Source: Melioribacter roseus P3M-2 (lineage in GTDB: Bacteria; Bacteroidota; Ignavibacteria; Ignavibacteriales; Melioribacteraceae). From it: a DNA stretch of 64,000 nucleotides. Location: the NCBI RefSeq assembly GCF_000279145.1, contig NC_018178.1, positions 2,985,688 through 3,049,687 on the forward strand, given 5' to 3'. Every line of letters starts with the position of its first letter. Positions within the stretch are counted from its first letter, which is position 1. The translations under genes were made by a program, and so were the position numbers. This document shows positions 3 to 7,162 of the stretch, piece by piece. The notes under the pieces were generated by a model, which worked only from the letters and a program-made list of their open reading frames with translations, searched no databases and was not told where the DNA came from.

Positions 3-2519
3 CAAATAGCAAGGATTAAAGAAATTATTGAAGCATTCAATATTCCGATATATATTTTGCCCGGTTACGAAGCCGACGATTTAATAGGAACCGCCGTAAG
101 AAAAGCAGCCGAAGCCGGATTGACTGCCTATGCAATTACTCCCGACAAAGACTATGTGCAGTTGATTAATGATAGCGTTAAAGTAATTAAACCCGGAAAA
201 TCGACGGATGAAATCGTCGTTATAGACGAAAAAAAAGTTGAAGAAGAATACGGAATAAAGCCGTCGCAAATGGTCGATTATCTTGCCCTTGTAGGCGATA
301 GCTCGGATGATATTCCCGGAGTAGCAGGTATCGGTCCCAAAACAGCGGCGCCTTTAATTCGGAAATTCGGCTCCCTTGAAAAAATTTACGAGAATCTCGA
401 TAAAATCGATAAACCTTCGGTTGTAAAAAAACTGATCGAAAATAAAGAGAACGCCTTTTTATCCAAAGAGCTCGCCACTATTAAAACCGACGTACCGTTC
501 GATTTCAATCTGGAAGATGCGCGTTTTACAAAACCGGATTTCAACAAACTGATGAAAATTTTCGGCGAACTCGAATTCAGATCTTTTGCGGACAAATTGA
601 AAAAAATCTACACCGACGAAAATAAGGAAATCGAAATTCCGGAAGATAACGGCGTTAAGCTTGCTCCCGAAGAATACGGCTCATTCGATAAAACGAAAAT
701 CAATTATAAGCTTATTACAACCGAAAAAGAAGCCGTAAAACTTGCGGATAAACTCTCGAAAACAGAATTGTTTGTATTCGATACCGAAACCGATTCGCTC
801 GATATTTTCAACGCTAATCTGGCCGGGGTTTCCTTTTCCGTAAAACCCGGCGAAGCATGGTTTGTGGCCGTTAATCCAGAACGCGCTAAAGAGGAATTGT
901 TTGCTTCCGAACTAACGGATCGTATTCCCGTCGAAAAATTCGTCGAAATTTTCAAACCTCTCTTCGGAAATGAAAATATAAAAAAGGTCTGCCAGAACGG
1001 TAAATACGACATTGCCATTATGAGAACTTACGGCATAGAAGTAAAAAATTTTTATTTCGATACGATGCTTGCAAGCTACGTTATCGATCCGGATCAAAAA
1101 CACGGAATGGACGAGCTTTCAGCCAAATACCTGCAATACAAACCGATTCCGCTTATCGAATTGATCGGTTCTAAAAAAACGCCCGAAAAAATATTCGAAG
1201 CGGATTTAAATAAATTGGCGGAATACTCGTGCGAAGACGCCGACATTACATTCAGACTTTACAGGATACTCGACGATATTTTGAAAAAAGAAAAACTCGA
1301 AAAAGTCGCGTATGAAATCGAATTCCCTCTCGTACCGGTATTGGAAGATATGGAAAGAACGGGAGTAAAGATTGACGTCGAAAGTCTAAACGAATTCAGC
1401 AAGGAACTCGAAATTAAATTACAGTCGATTTCAAAAGAAATATTTTCTTACTCGGAGGAAGAATTCAACATCAATTCGACTCAACAGCTTCAAAAAGTTT
1501 TATTCGACAAGTTGAAACTACCTCAAACCACTAAAACAAAAACCGGATATTCTACCGACGCTAAGTCGTTAGAGTCGTTACGAGGCTCTCATCCGATAAT
1601 CGAATTGATATTGGAATACAGACAAATTGCCAAACTGAAATCGACTTACGCCGATTCATTACCGAATTTGATAAATCCGAAAACGGGTAAAATTCACACA
1701 ACATATAATCAAACGGTGGTTTCGACGGGGAGACTATCGAGCAACGACCCCAACCTCCAAAATATTCCGATCCGTTCAGACCTCGGTAAAGAAATCAGAA
1801 AAGCGTTCATACCGTCGTCAGATGGCAACATAATATTGAGCGCGGATTACAGCCAGATAGAGCTGAGAATTATGGCCAGCATTTCGGGCGACGAAAATTT
1901 GATCGCCGCATTCGAACAGGGCGAGGACATCCACCGCCGCACTGCGGCAATGGTTTTCAAAGTGGCTCCGGAAGAAGTTACTGCAGATATGCGCCGCAAA
2001 GCCAAGGAAGTCAACTTCGGAATCCTTTACGGTTTAGGTCCCTTCGGACTAAAGAATCGATTGGGCATATCTCAGGCGCACGCGAAAGAAATTTTCGAGA
2101 ATTATTTCAATTCTTTCAAGAAAGTTAAACAATTTATGGACGAATCGATCGAAAAAGCGCGACAAAAAGGTTACGCCGAAACTCTTACTGGCAGAAGAAG
2201 ATACCTTAAAAACATCAACAGCAAAAACAGAACTATACGGCAATTCGAAGAAAGAGTGGCAATCAATATGCCGATTCAAGGAACTGCCGCCGATATGATC
2301 AAATTGGCAATGATTAAAATCTTCAAAGAACTGAACGATAGAAATTCGAAGACAAAGATGATATTACAGGTTCACGACGAGCTTGTTTTCGATATGCCCA
2401 AAAAAGAATTAACCGAGTTAAAACCGGTAATAAAAAATTTAATGGAAACCGCAATGCCCTTAAACGTGCCGATCGTAGTGGATATCGGCGCCGGTTCCAA
2501 CTGGCTCGACGCGCATTAA
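3..2519 (+). CDS. polA: DNA polymerase I, 5' end cut by window edge
   Basis: Replicative gap-filling and repair polymerase. The reading frame is open from base 3, and its first residues (QIARIKEIIEAFNIPIY, then the GYEADDLIG motif) belong to the 5' nuclease domain. The true start therefore lies before the window, with roughly 100 residues missing, and the TTG at 57 is not the start. Domain order is 5'-nuclease/H3TH, a 3'-5' exonuclease with DTETDSL, NGKYD and YSCEDAD, then the polymerase domain with motif A DYSQIELR, motif B RRKAKEVNFGILYG and motif C QVHDELVFD. All three exonuclease motifs keep their acidic residues, so proofreading should be active, unlike in Taq-type enzymes. Its 3' end overlaps the convergent gene at 2516 by four bases. 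Confidence 0.97.
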   Translation, partial: QIARIKEIIEAFNIPIYILPGYEADDLIGTAVRKAAEAGLTAYAITPDKDYVQLINDSVKVIKPGKSTDEIVVIDEKKVEEEYGIKPSQMVDYLALVGDSSDDIPGVAGIGPKTAAPLIRKFGSLEKIYENLDKIDKPSVVKKLIENKENAFLSKELATIKTDVPFDFNLEDARFTKPDFNKLMKIFGELEFRSFADKLKKIYTDENKEIEIPEDNGVKLAPEEYGSFDKTKINYKLITTEKEAVKLADKLSKTELFVFDTETDSLDIFNANLAGVSFSVKPGEAWFVAVNPERAKEELFASELTDRIPVEKFVEIFKPLFGNENIKKVCQNGKYDIAIMRTYGIEVKNFYFDTMLASYVIDPDQKHGMDELSAKYLQYKPIPLIELIGSKKTPEKIFEADLNKLAEYSCEDADITFRLYRILDDILKKEKLEKVAYEIEFPLVPVLEDMERTGVKIDVESLNEFSKELEIKLQSISKEIFSYSEEEFNINSTQQLQKVLFDKLKLPQTTKTKTGYSTDAKSLESLRGSHPIIELILEYRQIAKLKSTYADSLPNLINPKTGKIHTTYNQTVVSTGRLSSNDPNLQNIPIRSDLGKEIRKAFIPSSDGNIILSADYSQIELRIMASISGDENLIAAFEQGEDIHRRTAAMVFKVAPEEVTADMRRKAKEVNFGILYGLGPFGLKNRLGISQAHAKEIFENYFNSFKKVKQFMDESIEKARQKGYAETLTGRRRYLKNINSKNRTIRQFEERVAINMPIQGTAADMIKLAMIKIFKELNDRNSKTKMILQVHDELVFDMPKKELTELKPVIKNLMETAMPLNVPIVVDIGAGSNWLDAH

Positions 2520-3223
2520 TCTTCGGTCAGCAATTTATAAAAAAGATAACCGAAATTAATTTGAAGCAGCCCGAAAGCCATTCCGCTGTAAATGTCGTAC
2601 CGGTTTACTTTTTCGTACAGAGCGCTGTCGCCCGTGCTGACGTAATCGTCGTAAAGATTGTCCGCCCGGAGCTTGAAATAAGCGGCAATTCCGCCGAGCA
2701 GTACGGACGAAGCTATCAGCAATTTGAATTCTGTCGTTTCGGGAAATTCCTTTTTTAGCCTTTCAGACATTACATGAAAATTAACATTTATCTTATCTTT
2801 AACGCCATAGAATTGACGTTCGCCGCCCTTTCGGGAAACGGTAATAACGTCGTCTTCAAAGCAATAAATTCTTACGGGCGTATAACCGGCAAATTTATTG
2901 TTAATATTTACCAAGGCATCCTGAGGATTCGAATTAATTAATGCCGCGGCGGGCAATCTGTAATTAAACGCCCTCGCGGAATTTTCATCTACGTAAATGG
3001 TATCCGCAATCATAATTCCATTCCATATTATTGGAGATTCGAGTATCGATACGATATGCTTGCCCCCGGATAATTTAATCGATACGCTGCCGACGCCCGC
3101 CGGTTGATCGTCCACATAAATTGCCGCGTCGGGTTTTTCCGTAACAATTTTTACTTCATACAATTCCTGCTGCGCCTTCACGGTTACGGCAAAAAACAAT
3201 ATAATTAATATTCTTACAAACAT
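2516..3223 (-). CDS. Exported PEGA-domain protein
   Basis: About 235 residues. The start is taken at the ATG at 3223 because it gives a clean signal peptide (MFVRILIILFFAVTVKAQ) and sits one base after the stop of the upstream gene; the longer frame would begin inside that gene. Two PEGA-like beta segments follow, one around IYVDDQPAG and one around ALVNINNKFAGYTPV. PEGA domains are small surface or periplasmic beta-domains that often bind or scaffold other envelope proteins. The C-terminal third has a probable membrane-associated segment (LLIASSVLLGGIAAYF) and a second hydrophobic stretch near the end. It is last in a long minus-strand operon, after the PQQ-propeller lipoprotein and the Omp85-like fusion, which suggests a shared envelope job. 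The exact function is unknown. Confidence 0.75.
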   Translation of the reverse strand: MFVRILIILFFAVTVKAQQELYEVKIVTEKPDAAIYVDDQPAGVGSVSIKLSGGKHIVSILESPIIWNGIMIADTIYVDENSARAFNYRLPAAALINSNPQDALVNINNKFAGYTPVRIYCFEDDVITVSRKGGERQFYGVKDKINVNFHVMSERLKKEFPETTEFKLLIASSVLLGGIAAYFKLRADNLYDDYVSTGDSALYEKVNRYDIYSGMAFGLLQINFGYLFYKLLTED

Positions 3224-3224
3224 T

Positions 3225-4376
3225 TCAACCGCCGCGTTTATAATTATATAGATAAATAATTCCCCTGTCGGAGCCGGCAATAATATAATCCCGATAATAA
3301 ACCGGACTAAGTTTAGCCCGTCCTTCGTAAATTACTGTTTTACGAATCGCTCCGTTTGCTACGTCAATCAGGTACATTTTCTTGTTCAGGTCGGGCTGGA
3401 GTAAAATATTTTTGGTCATCAAAGGAGTTGCATTAATAAGACCGTCGATTTGAAGAGACCATTTTAATTTGCCGCTATTTTTGCATACGGCATAAATCAT
3501 TCCTTTCAAATTGCCCGATATTACTAATGAATCGTTTTGCACGGGAAAGTTAACAATCTTAGCGCCCGTATTAATTTTCCAGAGAAGTTTTTTTTGAGGA
3601 TAATTATATGCATATAAATTACCTGCTGCGTCGCCGAAATAGATAATATTATTATCTATTGCGGTTCCTGATGTAACGGAGGTATCGGCGCTAAAAGAAT
3701 CGACAATTTTTTTTTGCTCGGCGGAAAAAATAATTAGTTTACCTTCGTTTGTTCCCCATGCAATAATTTTGCCGTCGGATGAAGGATGCGAATTTTGTTT
3801 CTGTTTTGTATCGAAAGACCATTCAACGTAACCGGCGGTATTAAAATTATAAACGGCGCCTTCATTGTCGACGGCGACAATTCTATTGTTTAAGATCAAC
3901 AATTCGCTCTTTACCGAGCCGTTCAAATCGTACTTATTAATTTCCTTCCCGTCGAAGAAATCGAAAGTAACGAGAGTTGAATTCGGTTCGTTTCTTTTAT
4001 TCACCACAAAATAAATTCTCCTGCCGATAAGCGCCGGAGCGATTGAAATTTCGCCGTCGTATTTTTTGTAGCCATAGGACTTTCCAGTTTCAACGTCGAA
4101 TGCATATATCCGTCCCGAGAGATCGCCCGTAAAAATTAATCCGTTGCCCGCCGTTACCGAAGTGTTTGAATGGCTCCCTTTTAAATCGAATTGACGAACC
4201 AGTTCGAGAGAATCGCGGATCTCGATATCAGAGTAAAAATTTCTTTCGGGAACTCCCCCGAACATCGCGTATCCCGCTTCGGCAACGGGACGAAAATCGA
4301 CCAATAGATTTACCGAGCACGAATGGAAAACAAAAACAGTCGCTATGATCAATAAAACTTTTTTCAAAAATCCCAC
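3225..4376 (-). CDS. PQQ-type beta-propeller lipoprotein (BamB-like)
   Basis: 383 residues. The N-terminus has a lipoprotein-type signal ending in FVFHSC, with Cys20 the likely lipidated residue. The rest is built from repeated propeller blades of the PQQ/WD type, with repeats of the form GLIFTGDLSGRIYAFDVETG, NIIYFGDAAGNLYAYN and SPVYYRDYIIAGSDRGIIYLY, giving roughly seven or eight blades. BamB, the lipoprotein partner of the BamA assembly barrel, has the same plan. Its start overlaps the end of the upstream Omp85-like gene by 13 bases, so the two are probably translationally coupled. No quinoprotein catalytic residues are recognisable, so a scaffolding or assembly role is more likely than a dehydrogenase. 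The BamB-like role is inference from fold and neighbour. Confidence 0.72.
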   Translation of the reverse strand: MGFLKKVLLIIATVFVFHSCSVNLLVDFRPVAEAGYAMFGGVPERNFYSDIEIRDSLELVRQFDLKGSHSNTSVTAGNGLIFTGDLSGRIYAFDVETGKSYGYKKYDGEISIAPALIGRRIYFVVNKRNEPNSTLVTFDFFDGKEINKYDLNGSVKSELLILNNRIVAVDNEGAVYNFNTAGYVEWSFDTKQKQNSHPSSDGKIIAWGTNEGKLIIFSAEQKKIVDSFSADTSVTSGTAIDNNIIYFGDAAGNLYAYNYPQKKLLWKINTGAKIVNFPVQNDSLVISGNLKGMIYAVCKNSGKLKWSLQIDGLINATPLMTKNILLQPDLNKKMYLIDVANGAIRKTVIYEGRAKLSPVYYRDYIIAGSDRGIIYLYNYKRGG

Positions 4377-7162
4377 CCGAAGAAGAATTGATAAAATAAT
4401 TTATCCTGGAATCGCGAAAAATTGTTTTCGATTTTCTTGCCGATATCGTAACGGAGCGTAATGACGTTAAACAAATTGAGTCTGAAACCAAATCCGACGC
4501 TACCGAGAGTTTCTTTGTATTTAGAATCCCATGCGGCGCCTGAATCGAAGAACAGAGCGCCTCGTAAACCCGCGAAACCAAGACCGAAGAACGGAAATTT
4601 TATATAAATTCTGTCGATCAACGGAAAACGCAGCTCTACCGACGAGAGCCATAATTTTTCTCCTCTTATCGACCATCTCGGCCATCCTCTCAAATCCCAG
4701 CTTCCGCCTGCAAAAAATCGACGCGCTTCTTTGCCGTGATTTATGAAAATCGCTCCCCTTAAAGCAACCGCGCTGGTATAACCGATTCTGAAATATTTTC
4801 TGTAGTCCGCTATAACGGAATAATAATTCAAATTGCTGAATTTAATGTCGCTGATATAACCGAGCATTATTCTGAATCTCGATCCGTCAATCGGGCCGGT
4901 CGACGCCCATAATGCATTGTCGTGCACAAACGAAAGAGTATTCGACATCAGCAGCGCTTTTCTTGCCATAAATTCCCCGAAGAGTTCTTTATCGGAATTG
5001 GCAAGACTAACGCTGGCTTCGAGTCGTTGAAATACGGAGAACGGGTAATGAATTTCGGCGAAACCGCCGTAAACTCTTTCGTAAAAAAATTCTTCAGACT
5101 CGCGAATGTCGTATCGTCTGCCGGCAAAATGGAAAATTCCGTAACCGTAATTTGATCTTTTTTGCAGGTTGATTCTGCTGAGAGCAATATTGAAATTGTC
5201 TAAAATTTCACTCTGTAATTCGGCGCTGTTATAAAAATAAAAGATATAACGGTCGTCTCCCAAAAGGTCGCTTATGGCAAAGAGCGCGCCTCCTCTCGAG
5301 CCGTATATCGGATCGGTGGATAACTGTCCCACGGCATAATCGAGCGTATATTCCCTGTCGTATTTCAATCGGTCGACGCCTTTCAATGAGGAAATGCCAT
5401 CGGTTTTCCATGCAGGTTTGATTTTCGTATAATCGGAAGCAATTCGGTCATAAATTCCTGATGCGGATATATTTAGTTCATAAAATTGAAAAGAGAGCTT
5501 CTCAAACGAAGATGTAACGAGCGTAGTATCGTCCACAAAATCAAAGCTGTAAACGCTCGTTACAAATTTTGTCAACTGTTCGATTTCGTCTTTCTTTACG
5601 CCATAATTATTTAATCGCCAGATGTTATACACTCCGTCGTAATCACAATTAAAATAGAGCGTTTTATAGTCGGGAGAAAAACGAGGGAATCTGATATTTG
5701 CGTTTATGTTGGTTATATACGATACTGCATAAGAACTTAAATCGAGTTCGAACAAGTTGAATTTTTGTGCGTACTCGCCGGATGTCCTGTCTGAACAGAA
5801 AATGACTTTCTTCCCTTCTTTGTCGAACACTGGATCGGCGTCGGCATAGTAATCGTTCGTAAGGCGCAATAAAGTGTCTTTCTCGAGATCATACATATAA
5901 ATATCGACATAGGCCTTTGTGTCGGTAGCGGAGAACAAAAGCCTCTTCCCGTCGTTGGAAAATTTCGGCGACCTGATAGATATCAAATTCTCGAATCCCA
6001 AGGTTTTTATTTTATTATTACCGATTACCGAATAAAGATGAATCACGTCCCTTTCTTTCGATTTGGTAATAAATGCCAGAAGACCGTCCTCCGAGAGGTC
6101 GAGCGTATTGTCGAGAAGATGAAAGCTTTCGTACTCGGGCTCTTTTTCGCCTTCTATTATTACTTCCGGTTGCGTATGGTCAACGTTATCGTAATCGAGT
6201 TTAAATACGGAGGAATAACCGTTGTGATTACCGATAAAATAGATTTCCTTTTCGCCGTCCTTATTAAAAATTCTCGGATTAAAATTCAGCCCGGCGTCGG
6301 TTAATTTACGGGCGCCGATAAAATGAGGTAAGTAACTCTCGTATAACGGATAATACTTTTTCTTGAGATAATATTCCCATCTTTCGCCGATATCTTTAAT
6401 TTTTAATCCGAGGGAGTATTCAAGATTGTCGTTGAAGGAATTGAACCGCCACATATTCTCAATAATAAATAAAATTTTATCTTCTCCGAATTCTGCGGCA
6501 ATAAATTCCAGAAAACTTTGGCCTTCCTTGTAAATAATATATCCTCCCGCGCCGGAGAGGTCTTCGAGCGGAATAAACATGTTATTCAAAAGGAAATCCC
6601 TCATAATCATCTCTCCCTGAGCGTCCCATTCGTACGACCAATATTCCGCAAGTCCTTCCACGAACCAGAGCGGAGGCATTCTGCCGGTCTCAATTCTGTG
6701 GTCTCTGAGCAGATTGAAAATCTTGTTCGTCATAAAAACATGAACCAATTCATGCTTAATAACATGTCGAAAATCTTTCAAAGAGCCCGGATACGGAATT
6801 ACTACTCTTCCCTTTAAGAATTCAAAAAATCCCCCGACACCTTCGGGAATAAAATTCGGAATCGTGTTGGTCTGTTGGAAATGAATGTGCGAGTTGTAAA
6901 AAATTAGCGGAATTTTTGACGTTACGTAGTGATTGAATTTGACTTTCAGTTCCTCGAAAGATTCTTCTGCAAAGCGAGCCCCTATTTCCGCAATCCGTTC
7001 GAAGTTATCGTAGTAATAGATATTGAAATGCTCTGTTTTAATGAGCTTCCACTTAAATGACTCGTACTGGACTTTATTTCGACCGAAGAAGTAAAACTGG
7101 GCGGAAATTAAATGCGGCATTAAGAAAAGCAGCAAAAAATATTTCCGCCCTTTGAATATCAA
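4364..7162 (-). CDS. Exported metallopeptidase-like / TolB-type propeller / Omp85-like barrel fusion
   Basis: 932 residues with a signal peptide ending near ISAQ. Residues about 35-200 form a peptidase MA-like (gluzincin) domain: HELVH at 137-141 is a zinc-binding HExxH, and WFVEGLAEYW about 26 residues later offers the third ligand, Glu169. Residues about 280-590 contain PD40/TolB-like propeller repeats (KFSNDGKRLLFSA, FDKEGKKVIFCSDRTSGEY, RFSPDYKTLYFNCDYDGVYN). The last 300 or so residues are a beta-barrel resembling the BamA/TamA (Omp85) C-terminus, including FFAGGSWDLRGWPRW (compare the VRGY/RGF motif) and a terminal aromatic residue (FFFGWDF). A protease on a propeller with its own outer-membrane barrel could act on surface or transiting proteins. 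Its start overlaps the PGI/PMI stop by four bases. The domain calls are by eye, and the barrel family is less certain than the HExxH domain. Confidence 0.75.
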   Translation of the reverse strand: MIFKGRKYFLLLFLMPHLISAQFYFFGRNKVQYESFKWKLIKTEHFNIYYYDNFERIAEIGARFAEESFEELKVKFNHYVTSKIPLIFYNSHIHFQQTNTIPNFIPEGVGGFFEFLKGRVVIPYPGSLKDFRHVIKHELVHVFMTNKIFNLLRDHRIETGRMPPLWFVEGLAEYWSYEWDAQGEMIMRDFLLNNMFIPLEDLSGAGGYIIYKEGQSFLEFIAAEFGEDKILFIIENMWRFNSFNDNLEYSLGLKIKDIGERWEYYLKKKYYPLYESYLPHFIGARKLTDAGLNFNPRIFNKDGEKEIYFIGNHNGYSSVFKLDYDNVDHTQPEVIIEGEKEPEYESFHLLDNTLDLSEDGLLAFITKSKERDVIHLYSVIGNNKIKTLGFENLISIRSPKFSNDGKRLLFSATDTKAYVDIYMYDLEKDTLLRLTNDYYADADPVFDKEGKKVIFCSDRTSGEYAQKFNLFELDLSSYAVSYITNINANIRFPRFSPDYKTLYFNCDYDGVYNIWRLNNYGVKKDEIEQLTKFVTSVYSFDFVDDTTLVTSSFEKLSFQFYELNISASGIYDRIASDYTKIKPAWKTDGISSLKGVDRLKYDREYTLDYAVGQLSTDPIYGSRGGALFAISDLLGDDRYIFYFYNSAELQSEILDNFNIALSRINLQKRSNYGYGIFHFAGRRYDIRESEEFFYERVYGGFAEIHYPFSVFQRLEASVSLANSDKELFGEFMARKALLMSNTLSFVHDNALWASTGPIDGSRFRIMLGYISDIKFSNLNYYSVIADYRKYFRIGYTSAVALRGAIFINHGKEARRFFAGGSWDLRGWPRWSIRGEKLWLSSVELRFPLIDRIYIKFPFFGLGFAGLRGALFFDSGAAWDSKYKETLGSVGFGFRLNLFNVITLRYDIGKKIENNFSRFQDKLFYQFFFGWDF

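Follow-up and report, generated by a model that had tools for sequence, protein, structure and literature searches.

The stretch of DNA analysed here (the window) comprises 64,000 nucleotides from Melioribacter roseus P3M-2, positions 2985688-3049687 of a 3.30 Mb single-contig genome. On its minus strand, a gene for a phosphoglucose/phosphomannose isomerase (PGI) is followed downstream by three tightly coupled genes, encoding, in this order, an exported fusion protein (hereafter A), a BamB-like lipoprotein and a PEGA protein (Table 1). An earlier interpretation from the letters alone, referred to as the sequence-only reading, had described A as a peptidase-like domain, a TolB-type propeller and an Omp85-type barrel in one chain, and had suggested that the three genes form an undescribed system. 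The 932-codon open reading frame, its HELVH motif and Glu169 are all present in the sequence, and the 13-base overlap and 1-base gap that it listed are exact. The overlap reads GTGGGATTTTTGA and encodes the end of A in one frame and the start of the BamB-like protein in the other; MGFL is also the start of many rows in the BamB-like alignment. The open reading frame list offers an alternative PEGA start, a TTG upstream at 3280, but the ATG at 3223, one base past the BamB-like stop, is preferred because a signal-peptide-like stretch comes after this ATG. As detailed below, the three-gene set is real, conserved and coherent.

Table 1. Genes and features of the three-gene set (positions in the window)
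Feature	Position	Strand	Description or basis
Fusion gene A, 932 aa, TTG start	4364..7162	-	Signal peptide, gluzincin-type peptidase domain, TolB-like propeller and 16-strand Omp85 barrel
Signal-peptide-like N-terminus of A, residues 1-21 (...HLISA/Q)	7100..7162	-	By eye; hydropathy
Peptidase domain of A, ~residues 36-290	6293..7057	-	Domain model, fold search, Peptidase_MA_2 below cut-off
HELVH motif, A residues 137-141	6740..6754	-	H137, E138 and H141 identical in 146/146 covering sequences
Glu169 of A, putative third zinc ligand, 28 residues past H141	6656..6658	-	146/146
Tyr211 of A, putative transition-state tyrosine	6530..6532	-	146/146
TolB-like beta-propeller of A, ~residues 293-596	5375..6286	-	PD40; structural match TolB 1c5k
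16-strand Omp85 barrel of A, residues 605-932	4367..5350	-	PF01103; model strands; structural match BamA 8xnb
RGW of A, residues 825-827, loop between strands 11/12	4682..4690	-	Conservation; strand positions in model
Overlap of A and BamB-like genes, 13 nt	4364..4376	-	W-D-F-stop of A = M-G-F-L in other frame
BamB-like PQQ-propeller lipoprotein, 383 aa	3225..4376	-	PQQ_2 match
Cys20 of BamB-like protein, predicted lipidation site	4317..4319	-	Invariant in 34/34 aligned rows
PEGA protein, 235 aa, with a signal-peptide-like beginning, two PEGA stretches and a conserved C-terminal region that includes a moderately hydrophobic segment	2516..3223	-	PEGA match, alignment, hydropathy

The peptidase domain of A, modelled alone, reached a pLDDT of 84.5, and a fold search with this model matched the M9 collagenase 8jt1 (VIA Z 16.9, 3.2 Å, 226 aligned residues) and the M30 lugdulysin 7bb8 (VIA Z 16.9, 4.1 Å, 232 aligned), and further M1 aminopeptidases and M61. 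Sequence identity to the listed M9 entries was 10-14%. When the peptidase alignment was searched against the PDB by sequence, two collagenases alone were found, weakly (E 0.043 and 0.23), the fold search being clearer. The domain combines HExxH and a downstream glutamate in a gluzincin fold, as in the gluzincin peptidases, MA(E). His137, Glu138, His141, Glu169 and Tyr211 are identical in all 146 sequences that cover them, including the window, with two further rows gapped here, and for this reason the catalytic set of A is likely to be intact, although the Peptidase_MA_2 score of A, below its cut-off, speaks against this. Since the search patterns by which some of the loci were found include WFxEGxAE, the conservation of Glu169 in those loci is partly selected; alignment A1, which has 77 rows including the window, was assembled without motif patterns and is unaffected, and all five residues are invariant there as well. 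A weak match (E 0.043) aligned Tyr211 with a tyrosine of the Vibrio collagenase 7esi; by counting, this tyrosine is position 549 of the chain, and a related entry is titled mutant Y549A. BepA of Escherichia coli has a TPR domain alongside its M48 peptidase domain; neither M48 nor TPR was matched by full-length A (E up to 1) or by its N-terminal part (E up to 0.1).

The full-length model of A, based on 77 aligned sequences, had a pLDDT of 87.5 and a pTM of 0.86, and together with the domain and fold matches it bears out the proposed architecture. The propeller matched PD40 with 48.1 bits (cut-off 20.9) and could be superimposed on TolB 1c5k with a VIA Z of 25.3 (2.5 Å, 243 aligned). The C-terminal barrel has the 16 strands that the sequence-only reading had anticipated (residues 605-930), and it matched BamA 8xnb with a VIA Z of 22.9 (3.9 Å, 300 aligned). 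Both a scan of the barrel alone and the whole-genome search matched the Omp85 family PF01103 with 37.2 bits (cut-off 24), although a full-length hmmscan of A did not list it. Proteins of the Omp85 superfamily carry an RG(F/Y/W) motif in loop 6 and a C-terminal aromatic residue. In A, RGW lies between strands 11 and 12, which we take to be the place of the loop-6 RGF/Y motif; Arg825 is found in 147 of 148 A sequences, Gly826 in 145 of 148, and the C-terminal Phe932 in all 144 ungapped rows. The Omp85 features tested, a 16-strand barrel of BamA fold, the RG motif and the C-terminal aromatic residue, are all present. A whole-genome search for POTRA domains (PF07244, E up to 0.1) found none in A and matches in four other genes. 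Neither patatin nor POTRA was listed ahead of the barrel in the domain scans, setting A apart from PlpD and type Vd proteins, and the N-terminal 30 residues contain no cysteine, whereas TamL carries a lipoprotein signal.

The second gene was assigned to a PQQ-propeller lipoprotein of BamB plan on the basis of a PQQ_2 match of 78 bits (cut-off 27.6) together with the lipobox cysteine, and the profile of its family matched solved BamB chains at ~1e-42. The third protein matched the PEGA domain with 32.1 bits (cut-off 20.8) in 2 stretches. Its best conserved stretch is the C-terminal part (ADxxYDxY...QINFGxLxY, window 2516-2743), for which the domain scans listed no Pfam family. The PEGA gene and a DNA polymerase I gene on the opposite strand are convergent and overlap by 4 nt (window 2516-2519), and polA lies closely 3' of PEGA in many of the 40 order-level loci introduced below. 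By eye, the genes past PEGA vary across loci (a CRP-like regulator, a PHP-type protein and others) and were therefore excluded from the proposed system.

The set belongs to a little-studied group of bacteria, and the named relatives in the survey are Melioribacter, other Ignavibacteria, Kryptonia, Calditrichaeota and KSB1. In the order survey, 45 of 58 genomes contained A (in G012 in two pieces), and 40 of these loci besides the window were fetched, without G002, G012, G045 and G054. The BamB-like gene came next after A in 40 of 40 loci, and PEGA followed in 37. A wider, profile-based set of 161 A loci was reduced to 148 by dropping 13 near-identical rows. Loci with fewer than 1200 (BamB) or 2300 (PEGA) downstream bases were excluded from the counts, and distances up to 2 kb for BamB and up to 3.5 kb for PEGA were accepted. 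In this set, the BamB-like gene followed A in 123 of 135 loci, including two weak cases (L118, 22.6 bits, and L119, 43.6 bits) and one match (L214) at a distance of 1007 nt; PEGA followed in 104 of 127, including three matches below 60 bits. The conserved gene order expected by the sequence-only reading was thus found, with PEGA often in place, though less constant than had been implied. Part of the wider set consists of the best 80 of 488 relatives, found via the patterns mentioned above; without pattern-found loci the counts were 77 of 81 for BamB and 70 of 79 for PEGA, and restriction to loci that contributed no row to the profiles gave 90 of 102 for BamB and 77 of 100 for PEGA. It was also considered that the linkage might be kept only through slow rearrangement. 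Upstream sequence of at least 5 kb was available for 69 loci; 36 of them have no PGI match there, and BamB persists in 34 of these 36 and PEGA in 30; in 10 loci without PGI, PTSI and IDS, 8 keep BamB and 7 PEGA. The fusion also occurs without an adjacent BamB or PEGA gene (L107-L110, L227-L232, L236 and L238). In the four genomes checked in which A stands alone (L107-L110), a BamB-like gene is located elsewhere, in two of them with a PEGA match after it (72.3 and 27.9 bits). The eight other A loci without adjacent BamB are from the pattern-found set; the search for BamB elsewhere covered the four genomes just named.

The strongest evidence is the co-occurrence of the fusion and the BamB-like gene. 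Among the chosen genomes of the class, an ortholog-grade BamB-like gene was present in 29 of 29 with A (8 + 21), always with at least 253 bits, and the first 8 include four in which A lacks an adjacent BamB. Among 42 genomes without A (34 + 8, four of the latter 8 being 88-93% complete) there was none, the best being a partial match of 138 bits (G089). The 200-bit line was chosen after the scores had been seen and falls into the gap from 253 to 138 bits. The BamB profile includes a row from 12 of the 29 positives and none from the other 17; in G002 a contig end divides the match into parts of 253 and 151 bits, and a single stop is present in the frames of G017 and G223. When the 42 negatives were checked with the A profile, the top score was 447 bits and the best frames were 1029-1153 aa long, as in the paralogue B described below, except in G011, which gave no match, and in G027, where the frame is a fragment of 268 aa. 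All 8 positives searched for PEGA contained it (at least 94 bits; five have a profile row, and the lowest, G290, scored 94.3 bits), but none of the 42 negatives did (at most 49 bits, no match reaching into the C-terminal part). Genomes with and without fusion and BamB occur together within families f1, f3, f4 and f10, and genus g51 is mixed as well, with all three genes at L071 and L072 and neither A nor BamB in G053 and G057. This mixture in four families and one genus suggests that A and BamB were gained or lost together on several separate occasions. Outside the class, four of 7 A-positive genomes keep BamB (G123, G260, G222 and G271, 202 to 403 bits). This genetic linkage suggests that the BamB-like lipoprotein is a partner of A.

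The genome encodes a paralogue of A, here called B, of 1060 aa (L037 8098-11280). B matched Peptidase_MA_2 with 57.3 bits, over the cut-off of 32.4, and PD40 with 68.7 bits. The domain scans gave no Pfam Omp85 match in B, and a barrel is predicted from its alignment with A over residues 601-822 (32%, E 1.6e-21) and from an RG at the place corresponding to the A motif in 33 of 33 sequences. HExxH and the glutamate are likewise intact in 33 of 33. In a FastTree tree of 46 sampled A sequences (window included) and 33 B sequences, the two groups split with a support of 1.0. The order TamB-type gene, RNase R, B was present in 19 of the 33 loci of B, and among the remaining 14 there are three with less than 5 kb upstream; in the M. 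roseus genome this stretch is L037 8098-17867 (G000:C1 about 2182097-2191866). Its TamB-type gene, two places upstream of B, is the sole PF04357 match of the genome. Alone it is weak, with 16 bits, or 28.8 with neighbours in frame (cut-off 22.4), and hmmscan listed DUF748 below cut-off and no TamB in the C-terminal part. Profile comparison groups it with Pfam-confirmed TamB proteins, and hhalign showed the two TamB sets to be homologous (probability 100 over 1417 columns). No TamB was found next to A in the available stretches of the 161 A loci, using both TamB profiles (E 1e-5).

The four POTRA-Omp85 genes of this genome are BamA and three others. The possibility that A is the ordinary BamA was rejected, as the BamA gene sits in L266, in the context uppS-bamA-skp-like-lpxD (by eye). 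No TamL-like lipoprotein was recognised by eye among the four proteins, and for this reason B is a candidate TamB partner and possibly a TamA substitute, which we regard as a lead. The three others comprise a PlpD-like patatin-POTRA-Omp85 protein of 894 aa (L268 4991-7675), a 565-aa protein whose gene is near an MCE/Mla-like lipid-transport set and an RNase HII-like gene (region L269 969-7315), and a 710-aa protein whose gene lies ahead of that for a predicted secreted glycosidase with a type IX sorting-domain-like C-terminus (region L267 6193-10642; the last two contexts by eye). TamL has been ascribed to Bacteroidota and Chlorobi (PMC4494059, PMC12045153).

Omp85 proteins insert proteins into outer membranes or move them across. 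The preferred reading, to which we give about an even chance, is that the three genes encode a dedicated POTRA-less Omp85 machine, with protease and barrel in one chain, that processes or quality-controls outer-membrane clients. Since the barrel is even-stranded, both chain ends should be periplasmic, as Omp85 topology would predict, leaving peptidase and propeller in the periplasm at the barrel mouth. The BamB-like lipoprotein could dock on this periplasmic part, as BamB does on BamA, and the propellers would hold incoming outer-membrane proteins or lipoproteins at the mouth of the barrel. The peptidase would then trim clients to maturity or remove failed ones, the barrel would assist insertion or surface delivery, and PEGA might tether the complex to another envelope layer. 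Such a machine would unite the logic of BepA and the BamA barrel in one polypeptide, working beside the ordinary BamA and not replacing it, and might take as its clients some subset of barrels or surface lipoproteins. A wider proposal, held more tentatively and with somewhat less than even confidence, is that A and its partners represent a second class of assembly machine at the outer membrane, where peptidase and propeller replace POTRA, a BamB-type lipoprotein is obligate, clients are matured or destroyed at the barrel mouth, and a sister version, B, works with TamB across Ignavibacteria-like lineages.

Several points weigh against the assembly machine. The activity, substrate, complex and localisation of A are all predictions from sequence and models, and a POTRA-less barrel might be a mere anchor. 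Peptidase_MA_2 (PF13485) stayed below its cut-off in A (24.1 and 26.9 bits versus 32.4). The BamB-like protein scored 93 bits with the BamB equivalog TIGR03300 (cut-off 285.2), and designed and other PQQ propellers outscored BamB when its family profile was used as query. The compared genomes were hand-picked and are not a random sample. Outside the class, BamB weakens, with no match in G058 and partial ones in G063 and G145 (~63 bits); an earlier search gave matches adjacent to A of 22.6, 43.6 and 118.9 bits. In a separate set, ortholog-grade PEGA is absent from 5 of 8 A-positive genomes, and PEGA is therefore considered an optional member.

If the barrel were a passive anchor, peptidase and propeller could act as a protease in the periplasm, involved in peptide turnover or envelope stress, with the BamB-like protein as its substrate-recognition subunit. 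The co-occurrence with BamB fits this too, no POTRA was found in A, and insertase activity of its barrel is a prediction. However, the Omp85 hallmarks are kept (Arg825, Phe932 and the RG of the paralogues), and because the loop-6 motif is conserved, a working Omp85 barrel is favoured over a mere anchor; the frequent proximity of the paralogue to TamB also points to outer-membrane biogenesis. We therefore consider a passive barrel unlikely. Alternatively, A and B could be outer-membrane partners of TamB-type bridges for lipid or protein transport, standing in for TamA or TamL in the lineage, and the peptidase would have a regulatory role. The TamB-RNase R-B order, the position of the sole PF04357 match of the genome and the homology of the two TamB sets speak for this, whereas no TamB match was found next to A in the available stretches, RNase R separates TamB from B, the order was not shown in 14 of 33 B loci, and the 710-aa and 565-aa POTRA-Omp85 proteins could be TamA, which makes a TAM-like role for both proteins quite doubtful. 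The least probable of these explanations, by our estimate, is that A uses its barrel to bring its N-terminal peptidase and propeller out onto the cell surface, as in type Vd or PlpD-like proteins, to act on environmental protein. PlpD-like proteins, one of which this genome encodes, do place an enzyme before the barrel, collagenases are the nearest peptidase folds, and surface exposure was raised as an idea for the 'Metallo' subfamily of Heinz and Lithgow (PMC4104836). Nevertheless, the A chain has no POTRA, the folded propeller would presumably need to cross as well, and the partner is of the BamB kind, E. coli BamB being known to bind the POTRA domains of BamA (PMC13067283).

With regard to novelty, the pairing of propeller and barrel was already known, since the WD40-Omp85 subfamily was described in 2014 by Heinz and Lithgow: POTRA-less proteins with a propeller most like TolB before an Omp85 barrel, which the authors likened to a BamA-BamB fusion (PMC4104836). 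The claim of the sequence-only reading that the system is undescribed holds in part, as no account with these partners was found in the open-licence literature; searches there for peptidase-propeller-Omp85 fusions, PEGA with BamB and Omp85, TamB with Omp85, and POTRA-less forms yielded, among the papers listed, no further description that we recognised, and the excerpts of PMC3482391 do not mention Omp85. What appears to be new is the invariance of the peptidase site, the BamB-like partner that co-occurs with A and the paralogue linked to TamB. The functionally undescribed 'WD40-Omp85' class hereby gains a testable partner set, and a fused protease-barrel with a BamB-like partner offers a ready system for studying the coupling of proteolysis to insertion and for asking if POTRA domains are replaceable. 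Paralogue B, in turn, points to a possible TamA substitute in a genome without a TamL-like lipoprotein recognised by eye.

With its N-terminal propeller and POTRA-less Omp85 barrel, A falls within the WD40-Omp85 definition. It differs in its N-terminal zinc-peptidase-like domain, with an invariant site, and in its conserved separate partners; the excerpts of PMC4104836 mention neither an N-terminal zinc peptidase nor a separate BamB-like or PEGA partner for the subfamily. A resembles the BamA-BamB pair in having a BamA-type 16-strand barrel with loop-6 motif and a linked BamB-like propeller lipoprotein, but it has a peptidase and another propeller instead of POTRA, the genome has a separate BamA, and the lipoprotein falls below the BamB equivalog cut-off. 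Compared with TamA and TamL, paralogue B is often near TamB, as Omp85 proteins often are, but TamA and TamL both have POTRA and TamL is a lipoprotein, while A has no adjacent TamB (PMC4494059, PMC12045153). PlpD shares with A an enzyme domain N-terminal to an Omp85 barrel, but this is a lipase followed by POTRA, whereas A has a peptidase-like domain, a propeller and partner genes. The gluzincins M9 (collagenase), M30, M1 and M61 share the fold, HExxH, glutamate ligand and tyrosine of A, in which the peptidase-like domain is fused to a membrane barrel. Finally, E. coli BepA, an M48 metallopeptidase, helps LptD to mature or breaks it down, and probably does so at the BAM complex (PMC8423444), and the proposed role of A would be similar, that of a periplasmic zinc peptidase aiding or degrading an outer-membrane client at an Omp85 barrel. 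BepA, the known quality-control protease at an Omp85 protein, belongs to another peptidase family and forms a chain of its own, whereas in A a conserved protease-like domain is fused to the barrel itself.

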